A stretch of 38,865 nt of DNA from Klebsiella pneumoniae (GCA_945861225.1 CAMATU010000010.1:1-38865), one strand, 5' to 3'. Shown: positions 3,936 to 20,897, counted from the stretch's first letter. The notes: a model not told the origin generated them from the sequence alone. Program-made: numbers and translations.

Positions 3936-4778
3936 ATGACTCAAGAGATTCAATTTTCAGACATCAAAATTCCGTATCTCTCGATCGCCGAAGCGCGCCA
4001 GAAGACGGGCTTAAGGTTAGTCCTCGGCGCCTATCCGGTACCGGGCCCCTGGCGCGAAGCCTGTAAAGGTCTTTTTTATGTCAAGAAAATTCCCTACGCC
4101 TCAGTGGTAACCGCCAGCGCCGGGCGCTCGGATTTGGAGTTTGGGGCAGAGGGCGCTGATCGCGAATTGCTGGAATGGACCGGTCAATCCAGCGCGCCGG
4201 TCGCGATTTGGAATGATGAACGTCCGCGCGCGAGCTGGATTGATCAGCTCAATCTCGCAGAACGCCTGCAGCCGAATCCGCCACTCATTCCGGACGACGT
4301 GGAAGATCGCGCGCTGATGTTTGGCCTGTGTAACGAATTGGCAGGCGAGAATGGTTTTGCATGGACCAAACGCCTGGCGATCATCTATCGCACCTTAGCG
4401 GCACTGCCGGCTGATGATCCGGGCCGCGGATTCTGGCAACACATTGGGGCCAAATATCGCTACACCGATGCCGATGGCGCCGCAGCCGCCGACCGCATGG
4501 CGCGCACCGTGCGGGCCTTAGCGCGCCAACTTGAACGTCAGTACGATGCTGGCCGCACCTACTTCTGCGGTGCGCGGCTCTCAGCGCTCGATATTTATTG
4601 GGCGACATTCGCCACCATGCTGGCGCCGATGCCGCCGGAACTGTGCCCCATGGCAACCGGGTTTCGGGCTAGCTATTCAAACCCGGATCCGGAAGTTCAA
4701 ACTGCGCTCTCGCCGCTGCTGCTGCAACACCGCGATTTTATTTATCGCAGTTACCTTGAGTTGCCAGTAGTGTTCTGA
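3936..4778 (+). CDS. Divergent glutathione S-transferase-like protein
   Basis: A 280-residue protein longer than a normal GST. Residues about 27-110 look like a thioredoxin-type domain (LVLGAYPVPGPW, then a SAPVAIW cis-Pro segment). The C-terminal half is helical with a GST N-capping box (LSALDIYWATF). The ATG at 3936 has AAGGA at good spacing. The usual Ser/Tyr/Cys catalytic position is replaced by a GAYPVPGPW stretch, so glutathione transferase activity is not certain. Its 3' end overlaps the 3' end of the convergent DUF2063 gene by 28 bp. Function unknown beyond the fold. Confidence 0.75.
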   Translation: MTQEIQFSDIKIPYLSIAEARQKTGLRLVLGAYPVPGPWREACKGLFYVKKIPYASVVTASAGRSDLEFGAEGADRELLEWTGQSSAPVAIWNDERPRASWIDQLNLAERLQPNPPLIPDDVEDRALMFGLCNELAGENGFAWTKRLAIIYRTLAALPADDPGRGFWQHIGAKYRYTDADGAAAADRMARTVRALARQLERQYDAGRTYFCGARLSALDIYWATFATMLAPMPPELCPMATGFRASYSNPDPEVQTALSPLLLQHRDFIYRSYLELPVVF

Positions 4779-5557
4779 GGGACTTGCTGCGCGCGACTGC
4801 CGAGCAGCACGTCGCGCGCTCTCAGGCGTTCGAGGATTTCGCGCCCGCCGGCAACCACCGCATCGGGATCCGGATGGGCAAGCTCGAGGGCAATGCGTTC
4901 CAGCAGTCCGCGGCCCGTAATGCCGTGCGCCTGTTGAATCAGTTCGAGTAAGCGGGCCGATACTGGGTTCAGATCAATGAACCCCACTTTATCATCGCGA
5001 TCACGGCATACCACCAGATAAGTCGGAATTTCTGGTGGCGACTCCGGGATGAAGTCCGGACTTATCCTGTGCACGGGATACTGATAGGCGAGCAGGCGCG
5101 CAATTGGATTCAGCACCGGTACTTCTGCCAGTAAATCACCGTCGAAATTCACCCCCGCGCGGTCAATCTCGTGCGGATCGATCGTCACCGCATAATCGAT
5201 TGCTTCGTACTGCACGAGCTCGAGAACGCAGGGCGGATCCTGTGTGAGATCCCGTCCGTGCGCCATGAACTGCACGAACTCCTGCGGCACTTTGGTAAAC
5301 AGACCCGCCCGGCATTGGTGATGCTGAAAGAAATCCTGCACCAGTGCAAACCACGCGTCGTCGGCGGTGATCTTGCGCAACACGGGAAACAGGTTCGCGA
5401 TCATCCGCTCGATATTGCCGTACACCAGCTCACGATAGACGGCCATGCGCGCCGCAGGCACATCGCTCGGCGCGCTCACAGCCGCAGGGGAGCGCAAATG
5501 CTGCGTGAACTGTAACTGCGTGCGCGCGAAGGACCTAATTTGATTGCTGGCGGGCAT
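4751..5557 (-). CDS. DUF2063 family RiPP-maturation partner protein (BufC/HvfC-like)
   Basis: A 268-residue protein with the DUF2063 N-terminal region: R-x-x-VYRELVYGNIERMIANLFPVL followed by a FFQHHQ segment and a VLELVQYEAID helix. These proteins pair with DUF692 (MNIO) enzymes and help recognise or deliver the precursor peptide. The ATG at 5557 lies inside the end of the MNIO gene (23-bp overlap), which is typical translational coupling and is why upstream in-frame codons are rejected. Together with the upstream MNIO and precursor genes it forms an A-B-C operon. No DoxX-like fourth gene (HvfD) follows; the next gene is convergent. Confidence 0.88.
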   Translation of the reverse strand: MPASNQIRSFARTQLQFTQHLRSPAAVSAPSDVPAARMAVYRELVYGNIERMIANLFPVLRKITADDAWFALVQDFFQHHQCRAGLFTKVPQEFVQFMAHGRDLTQDPPCVLELVQYEAIDYAVTIDPHEIDRAGVNFDGDLLAEVPVLNPIARLLAYQYPVHRISPDFIPESPPEIPTYLVVCRDRDDKVGFIDLNPVSARLLELIQQAHGITGRGLLERIALELAHPDPDAVVAGGREILERLRARDVLLGSRAQQVPQNTTGNSR

Positions 5558-6419
5558 GGTCACTGGGGTTCTCCGCGAATTTTGCTTGAATCGCCCGGAT
5601 CTGCGCGACTTCCGGCAGCATGTCGGCCAGTGCCGGCAGATCGAAATCACGTTCAAGCAGGGTTGGAAAGACGCCGAACTCGCGATAGGCGAGTTCGAGC
5701 AATTCCCACACCGGTTCAATGACGTCCGCGCCGTGAGTATCGATAATTAAATCTTCGGCACGTTTAAAATGGCCTGCGATGTGCGCATAGGCGATACGCT
5801 GCCCCGGTAGCGCGCGTAGAAACTCGCCTGCATCAAACCCGTGATTCACGCTATTCACATAAATATTGTTGATGTCGAGATGCAGCAGGCAGTCCGCTTC
5901 TTCGAGCACCGCATTGATGAAATCAATCTCGGCGATCTCTCGGCCGGGTGCCGCGTAGTACGACACGTTCTCGATCGCGATCGGCCGTTCAAGAATGTCC
6001 TGCACTTGGCGAATTCGCGTGGCGACATGGCGCGCCGCTTCCCACGTGAAAGGAATCGGCAATAAATCGTAGAGCTGGCCGTGATCGGCTGAGTAACTTA
6101 AGTGATCGCTGTAATAACGAACTTCATGGATCGCCAGGAATTGCTTGATTCTGCCCACGAAAATTTCATCGATCGGCGCCAACCCACCGAGGTTCAGTGC
6201 GAGGCCATGGCACACCAGCGGGATGCGCTCGGCGATGGCGCGGAACTGTTTACCTCCCCTACCACCGACCTCGATCCAGTTCTCAGGCGCGACTTCCATA
6301 AAACTAATTTGCGCGGGGATCTCAGCGAGTAAGTCATCGAAATGCGCGCGGCGCAGACCAAGTCCGGCTGCGGTGACGGCGTGGTCGCGCGCGACGGTGG
6401 GTTTATTCAGGGAAGCCAT
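5535..6419 (-). CDS. DUF692 / MNIO multinuclear iron oxidase, RiPP-modifying (BufB/HvfB-like)
   Basis: A 294-residue TIM-barrel protein of the DUF692 family. Members bind two or three iron ions and oxidatively modify cysteines of ribosomal peptides. Seen: GLGLRRAHF near the start, SFMEVAPENWIEVGG, CHGLALNLGG, YYSDHLSYS, IENVSYY, LHLDINNIYVNSVNHG, YAHIAGH, DTHGADV and LLERDFDLP. These supply the His/Asp/Glu metal ligands expected of the family. The ATG at 6419 is chosen because CAGGAG lies 9 nt upstream; an in-frame TTG at 6437 has no such site. The start lies 270 bp after the precursor stop, a gap filled by a hairpin and a REP pair. The 3' end overlaps the DUF2063 gene. Confidence 0.92.
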   Translation of the reverse strand: MASLNKPTVARDHAVTAAGLGLRRAHFDDLLAEIPAQISFMEVAPENWIEVGGRGGKQFRAIAERIPLVCHGLALNLGGLAPIDEIFVGRIKQFLAIHEVRYYSDHLSYSADHGQLYDLLPIPFTWEAARHVATRIRQVQDILERPIAIENVSYYAAPGREIAEIDFINAVLEEADCLLHLDINNIYVNSVNHGFDAGEFLRALPGQRIAYAHIAGHFKRAEDLIIDTHGADVIEPVWELLELAYREFGVFPTLLERDFDLPALADMLPEVAQIRAIQAKFAENPSDHARQQSN

Positions 6420-6487
6420 GCCATTGAACTCCTGCAACGAATGAGACCGGGGTGGTATTTATTCACTCGAGGCCAAGCGGCATTTCG

Positions 6488-6549
6488 GTAGGAGCGGCTT
6501 TAGCCGCGAACAGCGTTGAATCGTCCATCGCGGCTAAAGCCGCTCCTAC
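6488..6549. repeat. GTAG-type REP pair (inverted)
   Basis: Two 22-bp arms (6488-6509 and 6528-6549) are perfect reverse complements, each beginning GTAGGAGCGGC when read inward. An 18-bp spacer separates them. The leading GTAG and the internal GGC...GCC palindrome match REP sequences mobilised by RAYT (Y1-type) transposases. A near-identical pair lies at 20836-20897, differing at one position of the arm (TTTAGCC against TTCAGCC). This copy lies between the precursor and the MNIO gene. Confidence 0.9.
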
Positions 6550-6635
6550 GGTTATAAGATCGATACGCGCGTGGCTCATCCTTGTCATGTACCTTAAGCA
6601 AATGTCATTCAACCCAGCTGCATTTTTCGCTACAT

Positions 6636-6673
6636 GCGCCGGTCACCTACGAAGCTTCGTCGGTGACCGGCGC
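6636..6673 (-). other. Long perfect hairpin between RiPP precursor and maturase genes
   Basis: The arms GCGCCGGTCACC (6636-6647) and GGTGACCGGCGC (6662-6673) are perfect reverse complements. The centre ACGAAGCTTCGT is itself a palindrome, so nearly all 38 nt can pair. On the minus strand it begins 16 nt after the precursor stop. No T-run follows, so it is not a classical intrinsic terminator. It more likely protects the precursor mRNA 3' end or lowers read-through into the enzyme genes. Confidence 0.7.
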
Positions 6674-6689
6674 AGGAATCGACTTGAAC

Positions 6690-7052
6690 CTACTTACCGG
6701 CCGAGGCGCAGATGTTGCCGCACTTCGCTACTTCGTGATCTTTTCCATCTGAAGGTTGGGTATTAGGCGCGGCGAGTGCCGCCTGACCACCACAGATATT
6801 GCCGCACTTGGCGACTTCGCCGCAATTGCTGCCGCATTTCACAATTTCGCCCTTATCGCTGAATTTCGGCGCGCCGCCACCACAGATATTGCCGCATTTG
6901 CCGTGCTCTTCGGCCACCATGAAGCCGCCCGAGAGCTCGGTCATCGCAAACGGATTGCCGGCGGCTTGTACCGCGCCAGAGCTGGCCAAGGCCACCACGA
7001 ATGCCGCGCGGATTGCGACCACGCCAGGCTTCTGAGATTTTTCAATTTTCAT
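6690..7052 (-). CDS. HvfA/BufA-type exported RiPP precursor with four CGxxC units
   Basis: A 120-residue protein with a signal peptide (basic N terminus, hydrophobic residues 11-28, probable cleavage after AVQA at 30). A conserved leader-like segment NPFAMTELSGGFMVAEEHGKCG follows in two parts: NPFAMTEL and FMVAEEHGKCG, as in HvfA-like low-complexity proteins. The Cys-rich part has four near-identical units, KCGNICGG (52-59), KCGSNCGE (72-79), KCGNICGG (82-89) and KCGNICAS (110-117). These hold all eight cysteines (C53/57, C73/77, C83/87, C111/115). The usual HvfA core is built of EGKCG repeats, so CGxxC pairing is a variant. The start has AAAGGA 8 nt upstream. The downstream MNIO and DUF2063 genes support this as the modified substrate. 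By family, a periplasmic copper-binding or stress role is inferred. Confidence 0.87.
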   Translation of the reverse strand: MKIEKSQKPGVVAIRAAFVVALASSGAVQAAGNPFAMTELSGGFMVAEEHGKCGNICGGGAPKFSDKGEIVKCGSNCGEVAKCGNICGGQAALAAPNTQPSDGKDHEVAKCGNICASAGK

Positions 7053-7096
7053 GAGTAGGTTCCTTTCAGGGAAGTGACATTGAACTGGTCGCTATC

Positions 7097-7116
7097 GGAG
7101 GTTCTTACGAATCTCC
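7097..7116 (-). other. Small inverted repeat in the precursor 5' region
   Basis: On the minus strand GGAGATTC and GAACCTCC (7 of 8 paired, 4-nt loop) lie 45-64 nt upstream of the precursor ATG, inside the likely leader RNA. It could be a stem in the 5' UTR or an operator. Short and imperfect, so weak evidence. Confidence 0.3.
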
Positions 7117-7132
7117 AATCGCGATGCAGGCT

Positions 7133-7162
7133 AGTTCGGCGCGCTTAGATGCGCGGTTACAT
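7133..7162 (-). promoter_or_regulatory. Candidate ECF-sigma-type promoter for the RiPP operon
   Basis: On the minus strand TGTAACC is followed, about 16 nt later, by CCGAACT, 80-110 bp upstream of the precursor ATG. The AAC-containing -35 and CGA-containing -10 resemble ECF sigma promoters, and related HvfA/bufferin operons are known to be ECF-controlled. No ECF or anti-sigma gene lies in the window. The match is by eye and tentative. Confidence 0.35.
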
Positions 7163-7208: not shown

Positions 7209-7778
7209 TCAGTGGTTCATGGCATACCAGATAACCACATAGGCCAGTGCGGCTGCAGTAAACCACCAAGTCGGTCGACGCCTGACGGCAACTTGCGGAC
7301 GGTTCGGTGGTGGCCGTTCGCCGGCCGGGGCAGTGCCTGGCTCGCCCACCAATTCTTCGAATTTCTGGAAAAATTCGCCAGCCAGTTTCTGCGCCGCGCG
7401 ATCAACCAGCGAGCCGCCCAATTGGCCGAGCTTGCCACCGATATCGGCTTTCACGCTGTAGGACAGCACCGTCGCGGCGCCATCCTCTGCCAGATGAACC
7501 TGGGCGCGTACCTTCGCAAACCCCGCCGGGCCACCTTTGCCTTCACCACTCAGGGTGTAACTTTCCGGCGCATGAATATCTGCCAAAGTGACGGCGCCTT
7601 TGAAGCGGGCGGATAGTGGACCGACTTTGGCCGCCACAGTGGCCGTGAATTCGGTGGGCGATAGTGCCGCCAATTCTTCGCAGCCGGGAATGGCCTGCTT
7701 CAATATTTCAGGATCGTTCAAGGCACTGAACACCCGTGTGCGGGGTGCGTTGATGCGGATTTCGTCTTTGAGTTCCAT
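7209..7778 (-). CDS. coxG: CoxG-like SRPBCC membrane-anchoring protein
   Basis: A 189-residue protein: an SRPBCC (START-like) domain at about 1-145, starting MELKDEIRINAP with the family block LNDPEILKQAIPGCEEL, and GPLSARFKGAVTL. A proline-rich linker (PAGERPPPNRP) follows, then a single C-terminal hydrophobic helix (WWFTAAALAYVVIWYAM). CoxG proteins anchor Mo-hydroxylases to the membrane and may deliver electrons to quinones, matching its place after the large-subunit gene. The start at 7778 has a modest GGATGG site; the frame extends upstream into a repeat, which is not homologous. A palindromic repeat separates it from the large subunit, so it may have its own promoter or be expressed by read-through. 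Confidence 0.88.
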   Translation of the reverse strand: MELKDEIRINAPRTRVFSALNDPEILKQAIPGCEELAALSPTEFTATVAAKVGPLSARFKGAVTLADIHAPESYTLSGEGKGGPAGFAKVRAQVHLAEDGAATVLSYSVKADIGGKLGQLGGSLVDRAAQKLAGEFFQKFEELVGEPGTAPAGERPPPNRPQVAVRRRPTWWFTAAALAYVVIWYAMNH

Positions 7779-7827
7779 CGTTCCATCCGTTTTTGGCAGC
7801 TTAGGAAAGGCGAGTACCCGGTATCGC

Positions 7828-7898
7828 ATAGGTCGGATAAGCGTAGCGTCATCCGACGATTGGCGGCGGATGACGCCCTCCGGGCTTATCCGCCCTAT
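7828..7898. repeat. Dispersed palindromic repeat between coxL- and coxG-like genes
   Basis: The left arm 7828-7857 (ATAGGTCGGATAAGC ... CGTCATCCGAC) and the right arm 7865-7898 (GGCGGATGACG ... GCTTATCCGCCCTAT) are near-complete reverse complements with a short loop. The GGATAAG/CATCC composition recalls enterobacterial-type REP/PU repeats. It is a different family from those at 2614 and 6488. It lies inside the Mo-hydroxylase operon and may modulate read-through to coxG. Confidence 0.8.
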
Positions 7899-7924
7899 AA
7901 ATTTCGGTATATCAACGGGCGTGC

Positions 7925-10327
7925 CTATTTGGCGCCGGCTTCCTGCAGCTTGCGCCAAATCACATTCGGCCGAATCGGCAGTTCTGTAATCTCGATATTG
8001 AACGGGCTTAGCGCATCACACAGCGCGTTACACAGTGCGCCAGACACCGCGCTCGGCCTTCCTTCGCCGATCCCACGAGTGCCCAAAGGCGTATGCGGAC
8101 ACGGCGTAGAGGCATAGGTCACTTTGATATCCGGCACGTCGGCCGCCGTCGCTAGTTTGTAATGTTCAAAATCGGCGGTCATTTGTTGACCCTGGTCGTT
8201 GTAGATGAACTCCTCAAAGATGGCATTCGAGAGCCCTTGCACGATTGCGCCATGCATCTGGCCATCCACGATCATAGGGTTGATCACATTGCCCACATCT
8301 TCAGACGTGAGCCACTTCAGGATTTTGAAGTTACCGTTGGCGGTATCCACTTCCACCACGCAGACGTCGGCGTTAAAACAAATCATCGGTTTGGCCGCTT
8401 CGAAGAATGCGGTGGTTTCGAGTCCACCGACCTCCCCTTCCGGCAGATTGACCGGAAACATGATGATGCGCTCGACAATCTCGCGGAATGACTTGCGCTT
8501 TGAGGGATCACGCGAATACACCACTTCGCCATTGGTAAAGGCGAATTCCTCCATCGTCGCGCGTACCCCAAGGTCATGTGCCAGCACGTGCGTGATTTTC
8601 TCGCGCAATTCATCGCAGGCTTTGCGCACCGCGCTCGCGAAATACGAACCCATGCGAGCACCAATGGTGCCTGAGCCGAACGGTGTCGTGCCGGTATCAC
8701 CAGTAGTAATGACGGTATCTTCTGGGCTGATGCCAAAGGTCGCGGCGACGATTTGCGAGATAGTGGTTTCGTGTCCCTGGCCACCGGGCGCATCGCCGCC
8801 GAGGATAAACACTTTGCCGCGCGGGTCGAGACGCACAGTGGCGGCGCCGTAACCCGGTTGATTCTCCATCGGCACCATGAGCTCCGAGGCAACACCAGAA
8901 AGTTCGACCCCACAGCCAAAGCCCATGCCGATGTAGCGCCCCTGCGCACGCGCAGCCGCCTGTTCGCGTCGGAAGCCAGGCAGATCGGCTTGTACCATCA
9001 AGTTATCCCATACCTTTAGAAAGTCTCCGCTATCGTAGTACTCGCCAGTGACCGAGGTGTACGGGAGCTTGGGTACAATATTTTTACGCCGAACATCCGC
9101 GGGCTCGAGGCCGCACTTACGCGCGACCATATCGACCGCGCGTTCCACCGCGAAGCGGGTCGGGAAATGGCCAAACGCGCGACACGGCGTCAAACAGGCC
9201 TTATTCGTAAACACGACCTTTAACTGCACATCCCCTAAGCCCCAGGTATAGGCGTTCGGCATTTCGATCGCGCCGAGGAAGGGCATCACGAAGCCCCAGT
9301 AGACCCCGATCTGACCAGTGCCGACATCTGCCACGCCGCGGTTGCGCAGCGCGAGCAATTTACCGTCCTTGCTGGCGGCCACTTCGAGCGCATTCACCTG
9401 ACCACGTTCCTGACCAATGCTCATCAACCCTTCATAACGCGATTCGATCCAGCGCACCGGCCGGCCGAGTTTGCGCGCCGCATAGGCCACGACCACGCTC
9501 TCGCGATAAAACGGCGCTTTCAGGCCGAACCCGCCGCCCATATCGCGCGGGGCGATTACGCGGACTTTCTCCGCCGGGATATCCAGAATGTCGGCGAAAG
9601 CTAGCCGATCAATGTGTGGCCGCTGCGTCGTGTTATAGACCGTCAGGCCATCCGACGGCGACCACTCGGCGAGCACGCCACGGGTTTCCATCGGCGTGGT
9701 GCCGGTGCGGTGTACACGGAATTTTTCGTTGATGACGATATCCGCGGACTGGAAAATTTTCTCTACCTCTACCTCGTTTTTGCGCTGTTCCTCCGCGGTG
9801 GCGCCGCCCGTGAAGGTCATCTCGAACATGAGGTTGTCGGCTTCTTCGTCGTGCACCTTGGTCGAACCCGGCACCTGTGCGGCGTCCGTGTCGAGCACCG
9901 GCGGCAACTCTTCGTAATCGACAACCACCAACTCGGCGGCATCCTCGGCCACATACTTATCGCGCGCAATAATCATGGCCACCGGATCGCCATGGAACTT
10001 TACTTTGTCGACGGCAAGCCCGTAGTACAGCGGATACTTTGCCGGCAGATTCGGCAGCAACACCGGCTGGCGCATCGATCGACAGTGAGTTTTCATTTCC
10101 TCGCCGGTGATGATCGCGACCACCCCAGGGAGCGCCGCCGCTTCACTGGTATCCACGCTTTTAATGCGCGCATGCGCGTAGTCGCTGCGCACGAAGGCCG
10201 CGTGCAGCATGCCGGGCAGCACGATATCGGCAACATACTTGCCGTGACCGGTGATTAGCCGAAGATCTTCCTTGCGCTCAAGGCGCGCGCCCATCCAGGA
10301 TTGAGTGTCTTTAATATTGGCAGCCAT
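7925..10327 (-). CDS. Molybdenum hydroxylase large (Mo-binding) subunit, CoxL/XdhB family, atypical active-site loop
   Basis: An 800-residue large subunit of the xanthine oxidase superfamily. It binds the Mo-pterin-cytosine cofactor and hydroxylates its substrate with water. Seen: an aldehyde-oxidase-type N-terminal domain (WMGARLERKEDLRLITG), the Mo-cofactor loop DMGGGFGLK (262-270), GDAPGGQGHETT (511-522) and the catalytic Glu755 in GTRGIGEG. At the loop that defines form I (AYxCSFR) or form II (AYRGAGR) CO dehydrogenases it has TPCRAFGHF (380-388). True CO oxidation is therefore unlikely. AGGAGG precedes the ATG by 6 nt. It lies 9 bp after the small-subunit gene. No cofactor-maturation gene (XdhC, CoxD/E) is present here. 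Substrate unknown. Confidence 0.92.
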   Translation of the reverse strand: MAANIKDTQSWMGARLERKEDLRLITGHGKYVADIVLPGMLHAAFVRSDYAHARIKSVDTSEAAALPGVVAIITGEEMKTHCRSMRQPVLLPNLPAKYPLYYGLAVDKVKFHGDPVAMIIARDKYVAEDAAELVVVDYEELPPVLDTDAAQVPGSTKVHDEEADNLMFEMTFTGGATAEEQRKNEVEVEKIFQSADIVINEKFRVHRTGTTPMETRGVLAEWSPSDGLTVYNTTQRPHIDRLAFADILDIPAEKVRVIAPRDMGGGFGLKAPFYRESVVVAYAARKLGRPVRWIESRYEGLMSIGQERGQVNALEVAASKDGKLLALRNRGVADVGTGQIGVYWGFVMPFLGAIEMPNAYTWGLGDVQLKVVFTNKACLTPCRAFGHFPTRFAVERAVDMVARKCGLEPADVRRKNIVPKLPYTSVTGEYYDSGDFLKVWDNLMVQADLPGFRREQAAARAQGRYIGMGFGCGVELSGVASELMVPMENQPGYGAATVRLDPRGKVFILGGDAPGGQGHETTISQIVAATFGISPEDTVITTGDTGTTPFGSGTIGARMGSYFASAVRKACDELREKITHVLAHDLGVRATMEEFAFTNGEVVYSRDPSKRKSFREIVERIIMFPVNLPEGEVGGLETTAFFEAAKPMICFNADVCVVEVDTANGNFKILKWLTSEDVGNVINPMIVDGQMHGAIVQGLSNAIFEEFIYNDQGQQMTADFEHYKLATAADVPDIKVTYASTPCPHTPLGTRGIGEGRPSAVSGALCNALCDALSPFNIEITELPIRPNVIWRKLQEAGAK

Positions 10328-10336
10328 CGTCGCCTC

Positions 10337-10804
10337 CTAGCGCACAGCTTTCGCGGCCGCACGCACGGCGTCCACGATATGCACATAGCCGGTGCAGCGG
10401 CATAGATTGCCGACCAGCCCGTGCCGAATTTCGTCATCGGTGGGATCAGGGTTTTTCTGCAGAAACTCCGTCATGTTCATCAGAATGCCGGGTGTACAAA
10501 AGCCGCATTGCAAGCCATGGTGCGCCTTGAAGGCTTTCTGCAGCGGGGTCAGTTGGTCGCCGTTGGCCAGGCCTTCGACCGTCGTAATGTGATGCCCATC
10601 GGCTTGCACCGCAAGCAGCATGCAGCTCTTGATCGCCTCGCCATCAAGCTGCACCGTGCAAGCCCCACACACCCCCTCATAGGTACAGCTGACATGGGTG
10701 CCGGTGAGCGCACATCGCTCGCGAATGAAATCCACCAGCAGCATGCGCACCGGCACTGCTTCGTCAAACCGCTCGCCATTGATCGTGACTGAAATATTTT
10801 TCAT
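10337..10804 (-). CDS. Molybdenum hydroxylase [2Fe-2S] small subunit, CoxS family
   Basis: A 155-residue electron-transfer subunit with two [2Fe-2S] domains. The plant-ferredoxin-like cluster uses C40, C46, C49 and C61 (HVSCTYEGVCGACTV, later KSC). The second, helical cluster uses C100, C103, C135 and C137 (CGFCTPGILM and NLCRCTGY). The first two cysteines are five residues apart, where the usual pattern has four (for example GCEHGVCGAC). All eight ligands are present. AGGT lies 7 nt before the ATG. Its ends are 3 bp from the FAD-subunit gene and 9 bp from the large-subunit gene, so the three are one transcript and one enzyme. Confidence 0.93.
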   Translation of the reverse strand: MKNISVTINGERFDEAVPVRMLLVDFIRERCALTGTHVSCTYEGVCGACTVQLDGEAIKSCMLLAVQADGHHITTVEGLANGDQLTPLQKAFKAHHGLQCGFCTPGILMNMTEFLQKNPDPTDDEIRHGLVGNLCRCTGYVHIVDAVRAAAKAVR

Positions 10805-10807
10805 GAC

Positions 10808-11680
10808 TTAACCTCGCGCCCGCGCAAACGCGCTGGCCGCCACTTCCCGCCCAAGGGTCCGAATGAGTTGTTGACGGTAGGCCGTATCGGCCCATTGATC
10901 GCTCTGCGCGCTCACCGAAGCGACCACCGCTTCAAGCGCGCGCTCGATGGCGGCAAGGTCACCCACTGAGCCAGCCAGCAAGCGCTCGCCAGCTGGCGCG
11001 CGCTGGGCACCGGCCGCAAGTCCGGCGAGCGCGATCCGCGCCGCCGTGCATTGACCGGCAGCATCCACCGTGACTTTCATACACACACCGACCACCGGCA
11101 GCGCATCCGTCACGAGTCCCCACTTCTTGTAAGCGCTGCCCGTGCGTGGGGCGTGCGGGAAACTGATCGCAGTCAGGATTTCATCCTCCGCGCGCGCCGT
11201 CTCCAGCGGTGCGATAAGAAAGTCGTCCGCCTTTACTTCACGGGTGGCCCCGGCCGAGTTCAACAAATGCATACTGCCATCGAGCCCTAAGGTAACCGCC
11301 GGTAAGCACGACGCCAGATAGTTCCAGCAACAACTGCCACCGATGGTGCCGCGATTCCGCACCTGGCGATCGCCAACATGCTGGGCCGCATCGCGCAGCG
11401 CCGCATAAGCCGGGCCGATCGTGCGATCCTCCGCCAGCTCGACATACCGCGTCATCGCGCCAATGCGCAACACAGGCGTGGTGGTGACTCCCTTGAGTTC
11501 GGTAATCGCCTGCAGATCGACCACGCAGCGCGGGCGCACCAGACGCGATTTGATCGCCTGCATGACGCTTTGGCCGCCGGCCAGGAAGATCGCCTCGCCA
11601 CTCGCAAATTTACTGAGCGCGGCAACTGCCTCAGCCAAGCTACGCGGACGCAAATACTCTTCGATGACCGCTGGATACAT
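10808..11680 (-). CDS. Molybdenum hydroxylase FAD-binding medium subunit, CoxM family
   Basis: A 290-residue FAD subunit that passes electrons from the [2Fe-2S] clusters to an acceptor. The FAD-binding PCMH fold is marked by LAGGQSVMQAIKSRL (about 34-48) and GTIGGSCCWNYLASCLPAV (about 111-129). The second block normally reads TIGGSLAHADPAAELPA, so the flavin loop here is unusual and has three cysteines (two adjacent). A CO-dehydrogenase-type C-terminal domain follows. GAGGAGG precedes the ATG by 9 nt. It is the first gene of the minus-strand operon, divergent from the catabolic operon that starts at 11967. A medium-small-large order is standard for this family. Confidence 0.9.
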   Translation of the reverse strand: MYPAVIEEYLRPRSLAEAVAALSKFASGEAIFLAGGQSVMQAIKSRLVRPRCVVDLQAITELKGVTTTPVLRIGAMTRYVELAEDRTIGPAYAALRDAAQHVGDRQVRNRGTIGGSCCWNYLASCLPAVTLGLDGSMHLLNSAGATREVKADDFLIAPLETARAEDEILTAISFPHAPRTGSAYKKWGLVTDALPVVGVCMKVTVDAAGQCTAARIALAGLAAGAQRAPAGERLLAGSVGDLAAIERALEAVVASVSAQSDQWADTAYRQQLIRTLGREVAASAFARARG

Positions 11681-20835: not shown

Positions 20836-20897
20836 GTAGGAGCGGCTTCAGCCGCGAACAGCCCTGAGTCGCCCATCGCGGCTGAAGCCGCTCCTAC
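20836..20897. repeat. GTAG-type REP pair (inverted), second copy
   Basis: The 22-bp arms 20836-20857 and 20876-20897 are perfect reverse complements, each starting GTAGGAGCGGC, with an 18-bp spacer. Same family, length and spacer size as 6488-6549. The compensating T/C difference in both arms keeps the stem intact. It lies between hyi and the phosphohexomutase gene. Confidence 0.9.

Follow-up and report, generated by a model that had tools for sequence, protein, structure and literature searches.

A putative SigF/NrsF-controlled captophorin operon with a compacted CGxxC precursor core

The 38,865-nucleotide stretch analyzed here (Klebsiella pneumoniae, GCA_945861225.1 CAMATU010000010.1:1-38865; the whole stretch is hereafter termed the window) carries an operon in which an HvfA-like precursor peptide is followed by an MNIO (DUF692) maturase and an overlapping DUF2063 partner, with every Cys of the precursor lying in a tight CGxxC unit. 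We consider it fairly likely that this is a captophorin operon under SigF/NrsF control, with a compacted di-cysteine core that would carry up to eight 5-thiooxazoles and bind Cu(I). The chemistry, modification sites, export, and copper role of the product are those that we infer for it, with the chemistry of the CGxxC unit probably being that of known captophorins. The first-pass annotation of the window had described an MNIO operon for a ribosomally synthesized and post-translationally modified peptide (RiPP), with an HvfA-like precursor departing from the EGKCG core, and this description is borne out by the leader and by HvfB and HvfC matches beyond their cut-offs. Its 120-aa precursor with four units holding all eight Cys can be read directly from the sequence (the signal peptide being putative), and the DUF692 enzyme and overlapping DUF2063 partner are confirmed by PF05114, HvfB, and HvfC matches together with a 23-bp gene overlap. 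The elements of the system are as follows:

7131..7160, minus strand: SigF-type extracytoplasmic function (ECF) sigma factor promoter GTAACC-N16-CGAACTAG, ~80 bp upstream of the precursor start
6690..7052, minus strand: HvfA-like precursor of 120 aa with 8 Cys, matching neither Pfam nor the NCBIfam HvfA models
6960..7052, minus strand: putative Sec signal peptide, residues 1-31, assigned by eye (basic start, hydrophobic AAFVVALASSGAVQA)
6912..6956, minus strand: leader segment NPFAMTELSGGFMVA, residues 33-47, conserved across both core types
6876..6899, minus strand: core unit 1, KCGNICGG, both Cys invariant in five species
6816..6839, minus strand: core unit 2, KCGSNCGE, Cys conserved in five species
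6786..6809, minus strand: core unit 3, KCGNICGG, Cys conserved in five species
6702..6725, minus strand: core unit 4, KCGNICAS, Cys conserved in five species
5535..6419, minus strand: HvfB-type MNIO maturase, 294 aa (PF05114, 336 bits, 2e-100; HvfB model)
5640..5642, minus strand: MNIO Asp260 (ERDFD), an alignment column diagnostic of the CGxxC clade
4751..5557, minus strand: HvfC/PME-type 1 (PME1) partner, DUF2063 plus NGO1945 C-terminal domain (PF22106, PF09836, NF050145)

The ATG at 5557, from which the partner gene overlaps the end of the MNIO gene, is likely the true start, replacing the mechanical open reading frame (ORF) at 4751-5719.

A cysteine step of four and its distribution

All eight Cys fall in exactly four C-x3-C units; for eight Cys placed randomly in the 88-aa mature chain, at least four i,i+4 pairs would arise by chance with p ~7e-4. 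The CGxxC precursor was found in five genomes, i.e., that of the window, G004 (same genus), G010 and G018 (same family; L032 and L031), and G198 (another family), with the G004 precursor identical in sequence to L030 from a groundwater gammaproteobacterial metagenome-assembled genome (MAG). An MNIO gene follows the precursor in each relative, as does the partner gene after it (checked in G004, G018, and G198). No further occurrence was detected among the roughly 780 genomes searched. A DNA pattern scan for CGN(I/V/M)C in 398 genomes of the phylum gave chance ORFs only, the window excepted, and thus no further independent origins were found; a plasmid-borne homologue was also sought, with none found.

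Across these five species of two families, all eight Cys and their spacing (4-16-4-6-4-23/24-4) are kept. The intra-pair step is 4 in 20/20 units of the CGxxC precursors, whereas among 29 EGKCG-side relatives it is 5 in 70 cases and never 4. The first Cys is preceded by K, Q, or R in all 20 units, as in EGKCG, and the second by I, F, V, N, or M; the residue following Cys is Gly (31) or Ala (9) in 40/40 cases. The leader NPF...G(Y/F)MVA is common to CGxxC and EGKCG-side precursors (NPF in 34/35, with G(Y/F) and MVA strongly conserved), and the window's precursor contains an NPFAMTEL segment. A step of 4 versus 5, combined with a common leader and common enzymes, therefore indicates a change in the core, with leader and enzymes retained. 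Of the contrast first drawn between CGxxC pairs and EGKCG repeats, it is the step of 4 that is new; pairing itself is not, since Cys come in pairs in canonical EGKCG cores as well (KCGEGKCG, at a step of 5). An AlphaFold model of the precursor had a mean predicted local distance difference test score of 32 and was unusable, and so no fold is claimed for this protein.

Two further MNIO systems are encoded in the same genome. One is a canonical EGKCG HvfA system (L004:1142-1447, with L003) whose MNIO gene is apparently split by the contig break C120/C209, and upstream of which lies GTAACT-N16-CGAA. The other (L002:1132-1440, on C4) belongs to a second conserved MNIO precursor family of the same bacterial family (also L131, L132, L138, L139, L141, L142, and L029), comprising two-Cys precursors of 102-107 aa with the pattern NPFQMVEFG...DMQGNKV.INDETGF.YGGD...KDPAVCGTFSGSSCSM.HL; the adjoining MNIOs have Glu at the FonB F250 position (ERDE). 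Pfam and NCBIfam searches with the C4 precursor gave no match, and this family is possibly undescribed. In three further relatives, L019, L027, and L137, an HvfA-like leader precedes a core whose Cys are few or diverge in pattern (e.g., EKSCGGG...MTCGAS), with the L137 MNIO having Ala at the F250 position.

Maturation enzymes and the fate of the paired cysteines

The MNIO scored 409.7 bits against the NCBIfam HvfB model PRK05409 (cut-off 360), 259 bits against MNIO_BufB (under its cut-off of 310), and 35 bits against the methanobactin MbnB equivalog TIGR04159 (far from its cut-off of 325), while also failing the ApyH and ChrH models. The solved structure closest to it, 3BWW, is that of a Histophilus somni MNIO (PMC13097082). 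The partner reached 270.4 bits against the HvfC model NF050145 (cut-off 142). In a maximum-likelihood tree of 40 MNIOs, the five CGxxC enzymes fall into a single clade (99/93) that is nested within the EGKCG enzymes. Of the active-site residues of the Lys-Cys group, RR and the catalytic D are kept in these five, and F in 4/5. A sole alignment column fully separates the two types: Asp260, which is Asp in 5/5 CGxxC MNIOs and Asn in 33/33 EGKCG MNIOs. As placed by the ERDF motif, this residue lies two positions past the catalytic Asp (FonB D249) and adjoins the position of FonB F250, which was modeled as contacting the substrate Lys and Gly (PMC13097082). With the CGxxC clade having a single origin, Asp260 is a lead and not a statistical proof. 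His180, also considered as diagnostic, was dropped, as it is present in four EGKCG enzymes and in 3BWW.

All characterized MNIO-PME1 pairs form 5-thiooxazole, with the loss of 4 H per Cys (PMC13097082), and their products bind Cu(I) (PMC13097082, PMC12538549). The FonBC pair mostly requires Gly or Ala after Cys (the sole residues accepted there in a double-variant panel), and a variant with NVCGG, a commonly occurring 5-mer motif, was modified once (PMC13097082). Given the Gly or Ala after every Cys of the CGxxC precursors, this residue rule and the NVCGG result suggest that all eight Cys would become 5-thiooxazoles; up to eight paired rings would thus be expected as Cu(I) sites. Further support comes from the HvfB and HvfC scores, the EGKCG-type leader, and the own-genome EGKCG HvfA with its own MNIO. 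The following sequence of events can thus be envisaged: (i) metal or oxidant stress would free SigF, which would transcribe the precursor gene from GTAACC-N16-CGAA; (ii) the DUF2063 partner would bind the NPF...MVA leader and present the precursor to the MNIO; (iii) oxidation by the MNIO, probably of the first and second Cys alike in every CGxxC unit, would yield 5-thiooxazoles with the loss of 4 H apiece, for up to eight rings per precursor (-32 H); and (iv) Sec would export the product, which would bind Cu(I), every C-x3-C pair offering it a bidentate thiolate site.

Several observations weigh against this proposal. When the precursor (P0001) was compared with HvfA models, as the first-pass annotation had advised, neither NF050137 (KCGExKCG repeat core) nor NF050188 (equivalog) matched it even at E<=1. 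The G198 copy matched neither model. Three EGKCG relatives do match HvfA models, of which L021 and L061 exceed the NF050137 cut-off and the own-genome EGKCG copy falls just below it (17.3 vs 19.5). FonBC acted on a 5-residue register (PMC13097082), as opposed to the CGxxC step of 4. It was also impaired by Phe before Cys (PMC13097082), a residue that precedes the second Cys in three species of the CGxxC clade (CGTFC, CGNFC), and the second Cys may therefore be a poor substrate. Asp260 could be drift, as the five MNIOs represent one evolutionary event. In G004 and G198, a SigF motif was sought upstream of the precursor and not found.

We regard it as rather unlikely that 5-thiooxazole formation is confined to the first Cys per unit, set in Lys-Cys-Gly as in HvfA, while the second stays a free thiol, with the pair then serving as a mixed thiooxazole/thiolate copper site or forming a disulfide. 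The K/Q/R before the first Cys in 20/20 units, as opposed to I/F/V/N/M before the second, would fit such half-modification, as would the single modification of NVCGG and the impairment of FonBC by Phe. However, the second Cys is equally invariant and always precedes Gly or Ala, as expected of substrates and not of plain thiol ligands; moreover, the F250D variant of FonB accepts substrates with Phe before Cys (PMC13097082), and the CGxxC clade is altered at the very next residue (N to D).

That the MNIO instead links or doubly oxidizes the CGxxC pair (yielding a bridged bicycle, thioether, or other product, and not 5-thiooxazole) seems improbable. The step of 4 rather than 5, the clade-specific Asp260 beside a substrate-contacting residue, and the chemical diversity of the MNIO superfamily (PMC12452194) hint only indirectly at such a departure, whereas the nesting of this HvfB equivalog among EGKCG enzymes and the uniform 5-thiooxazole output of characterized MNIO-PME1 pairs (PMC13097082) speak against it. 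The earlier suggestion that a CGxxC unit could give a different modification is not supported, in view of the position of the enzyme in the tree, its retained active-site residues, and agreement with the FonBC residue rule. More broadly, there is only a modest chance that CGxxC and Asp260 together define a maturation other than eight independent 5-thiooxazoles, be it heterocycle plus free thiolate or a bridged pair, which would constitute a new bidentate copper site.

It is very improbable that the precursor is an unmodified Cys-rich periplasmic metal or redox peptide, with the adjoining MNIO having another substrate. Cys pairs alone are able to bind Cu(I). Bufferin-type precursors without an adjacent MNIO also exist (PMC12452194); however, the precursor-MNIO-PME1 order is kept in five species of two families amid differing neighborhoods, together with an HvfA leader.

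Placement in the SigF/NrsF regulon

The promoter upstream of the precursor matches exactly the Caulobacter SigF consensus GTAACC-N16-CGAA (PMC3511200). In Caulobacter, the SigF regulon includes DUF2282-DUF692-DUF2063-DoxX genes (bufferin), which are induced by chromium and cadmium (PMC3511200). The genome of the window has one NrsF gene, immediately preceded by a gene for an ECF sigma factor, and a SigF motif starts 45 bp before this sigF gene (sigF-nrsF). The motif, with GTAACC or GTAACT as its first half, also precedes the precursor in G010 and G018, where it is found near sigF-nrsF as well, and before msrAB in G010 and a cytochrome b561 + Oxidored_molyb pair in G018. In support of SigF control, the motif upstream of the precursor and NrsF in the genome co-occur in G000, G010, and G018, and neither was found in G004 or G198. 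Whole-genome counts of the pattern were close to those of a reversed-pattern control, and so the argument for a regulon rests on motif position, not number. Judged by this position, the evidence places the operon in a predicted SigF envelope-stress regulon in three species.

In H. influenzae, msrAB is similarly under the control of RpoE2, together with a DoxX gene cluster that has a homologous counterpart in Neisseria (PMC7907618) and that we take to be hvf. Uncultured gammaproteobacterial SigF-NrsF loci (L083, L120, L121, L095, and L092) have the SigF motif in front of them, with the motif also present before msrAB and cytochrome b561/Oxidored_molyb.

Known relatives, surroundings, and significance

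We file the system as a captophorin variant beside HvfA because its enzymes and leader are HvfA-like, yet the HvfA core model fails. With oxazolin/HvfA of Haemophilus influenzae (NF050188, NF050137) it shares a Sec signal (here putative), an HvfA-type leader, HvfB and HvfC partners, and an ECF-sigma stress regulon; it differs in having C-x3-C (KCGNICGG) in place of KCGExKCG, in matching neither HvfA model, and in lacking DoxX/HvfX. Fontiphorin (Fontimonas thermophila fonABC) and captophorins likewise have an A-B-C cluster without DoxX, the RR and D-F residues, and a small residue after Cys; however, the sites of fontiphorin are of the EGKCG type, seven in number and spaced at step 5, the residue after the Phe is Asn in EGKCG-type enzymes and Asp in the CGxxC clade, and the product here is a predicted one. 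Bulbicupramide (Microbulbifer mmrABC) also has two-Cys cassettes, and its paired thiooxazoles bind Cu(I) (PMC12538549), but these cassettes are KCGEGKCG-like (Cys40/Cys45, step 5). With paired, Cu(I)-binding modified Cys already described for such cassettes, the early view of an undescribed kind of system is not supported. With bufferin 1 of Caulobacter (DUF2282), the system has in common an MNIO-DUF2063 operon preceded by the SigF promoter GTAACC-N16-CGAA, and NrsF in the genome, but the precursor here is of another family (Pfam gave no match, DUF2282 included), and no DoxX gene is present. The CGxxC core may already stand in a published table, as PMC13097082 names NVCGG among common 5-mers.

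No DoxX gene lies near the operon, and none scored over the cut-off in the whole genome, which is 88% complete. The absence of a DoxX-type HvfD claimed at the outset is thus borne out, but it is not distinguishing because the characterized fon cluster also lacks DoxX (PMC13097082); the idea that a missing DoxX is unusual was dropped on these grounds. Two further features lie between the precursor and MNIO genes:

6636..6673, minus strand: 12-bp perfect hairpin directly after the precursor stop, from the fold of 6410-6700
6488..6549, no strand assigned: repetitive extragenic palindromic (REP)-like inverted repeat, GTAGGAGCGGCTTTAGCCGCGA on both strands

The intergenic fold of 6410-6700 has a z of -7.1 for the whole stretch, hairpin and repeat together, and the hairpin is a possible stabilizer or attenuator. 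The REP-like repeats occur in facing pairs, at 6488-6549 and again at 20836-20897. A GST-C domain protein (3936-4778, plus strand) converges with and overlaps the end of the partner gene. On the other side, at 7209-11680, are a CoxG-like protein and a molybdenum hydroxylase gene set (CoxL/CoxS/CoxM-like by sequence); molybdenum hydroxylase genes adjoin the operon in G004 as well (L076).

Captophorins rank with the most numerous RiPPs; Cys pairs as tight as these are unusual, having been found in five of roughly 780 genomes searched. The system represents a natural enzyme-substrate pair in which the Cys step has gone from 5 to 4 and one residue close to the catalytic Asp has been swapped. Because the genome also encodes a canonical HvfA system, which can serve as an internal control, MNIO specificity could be tested by direct swaps. 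The SigF promoter, also found before sigF-nrsF, would mean that, in gammaproteobacterial MAGs, the SigF/NrsF stress response extends to a captophorin that does not belong to the DUF2282 family.

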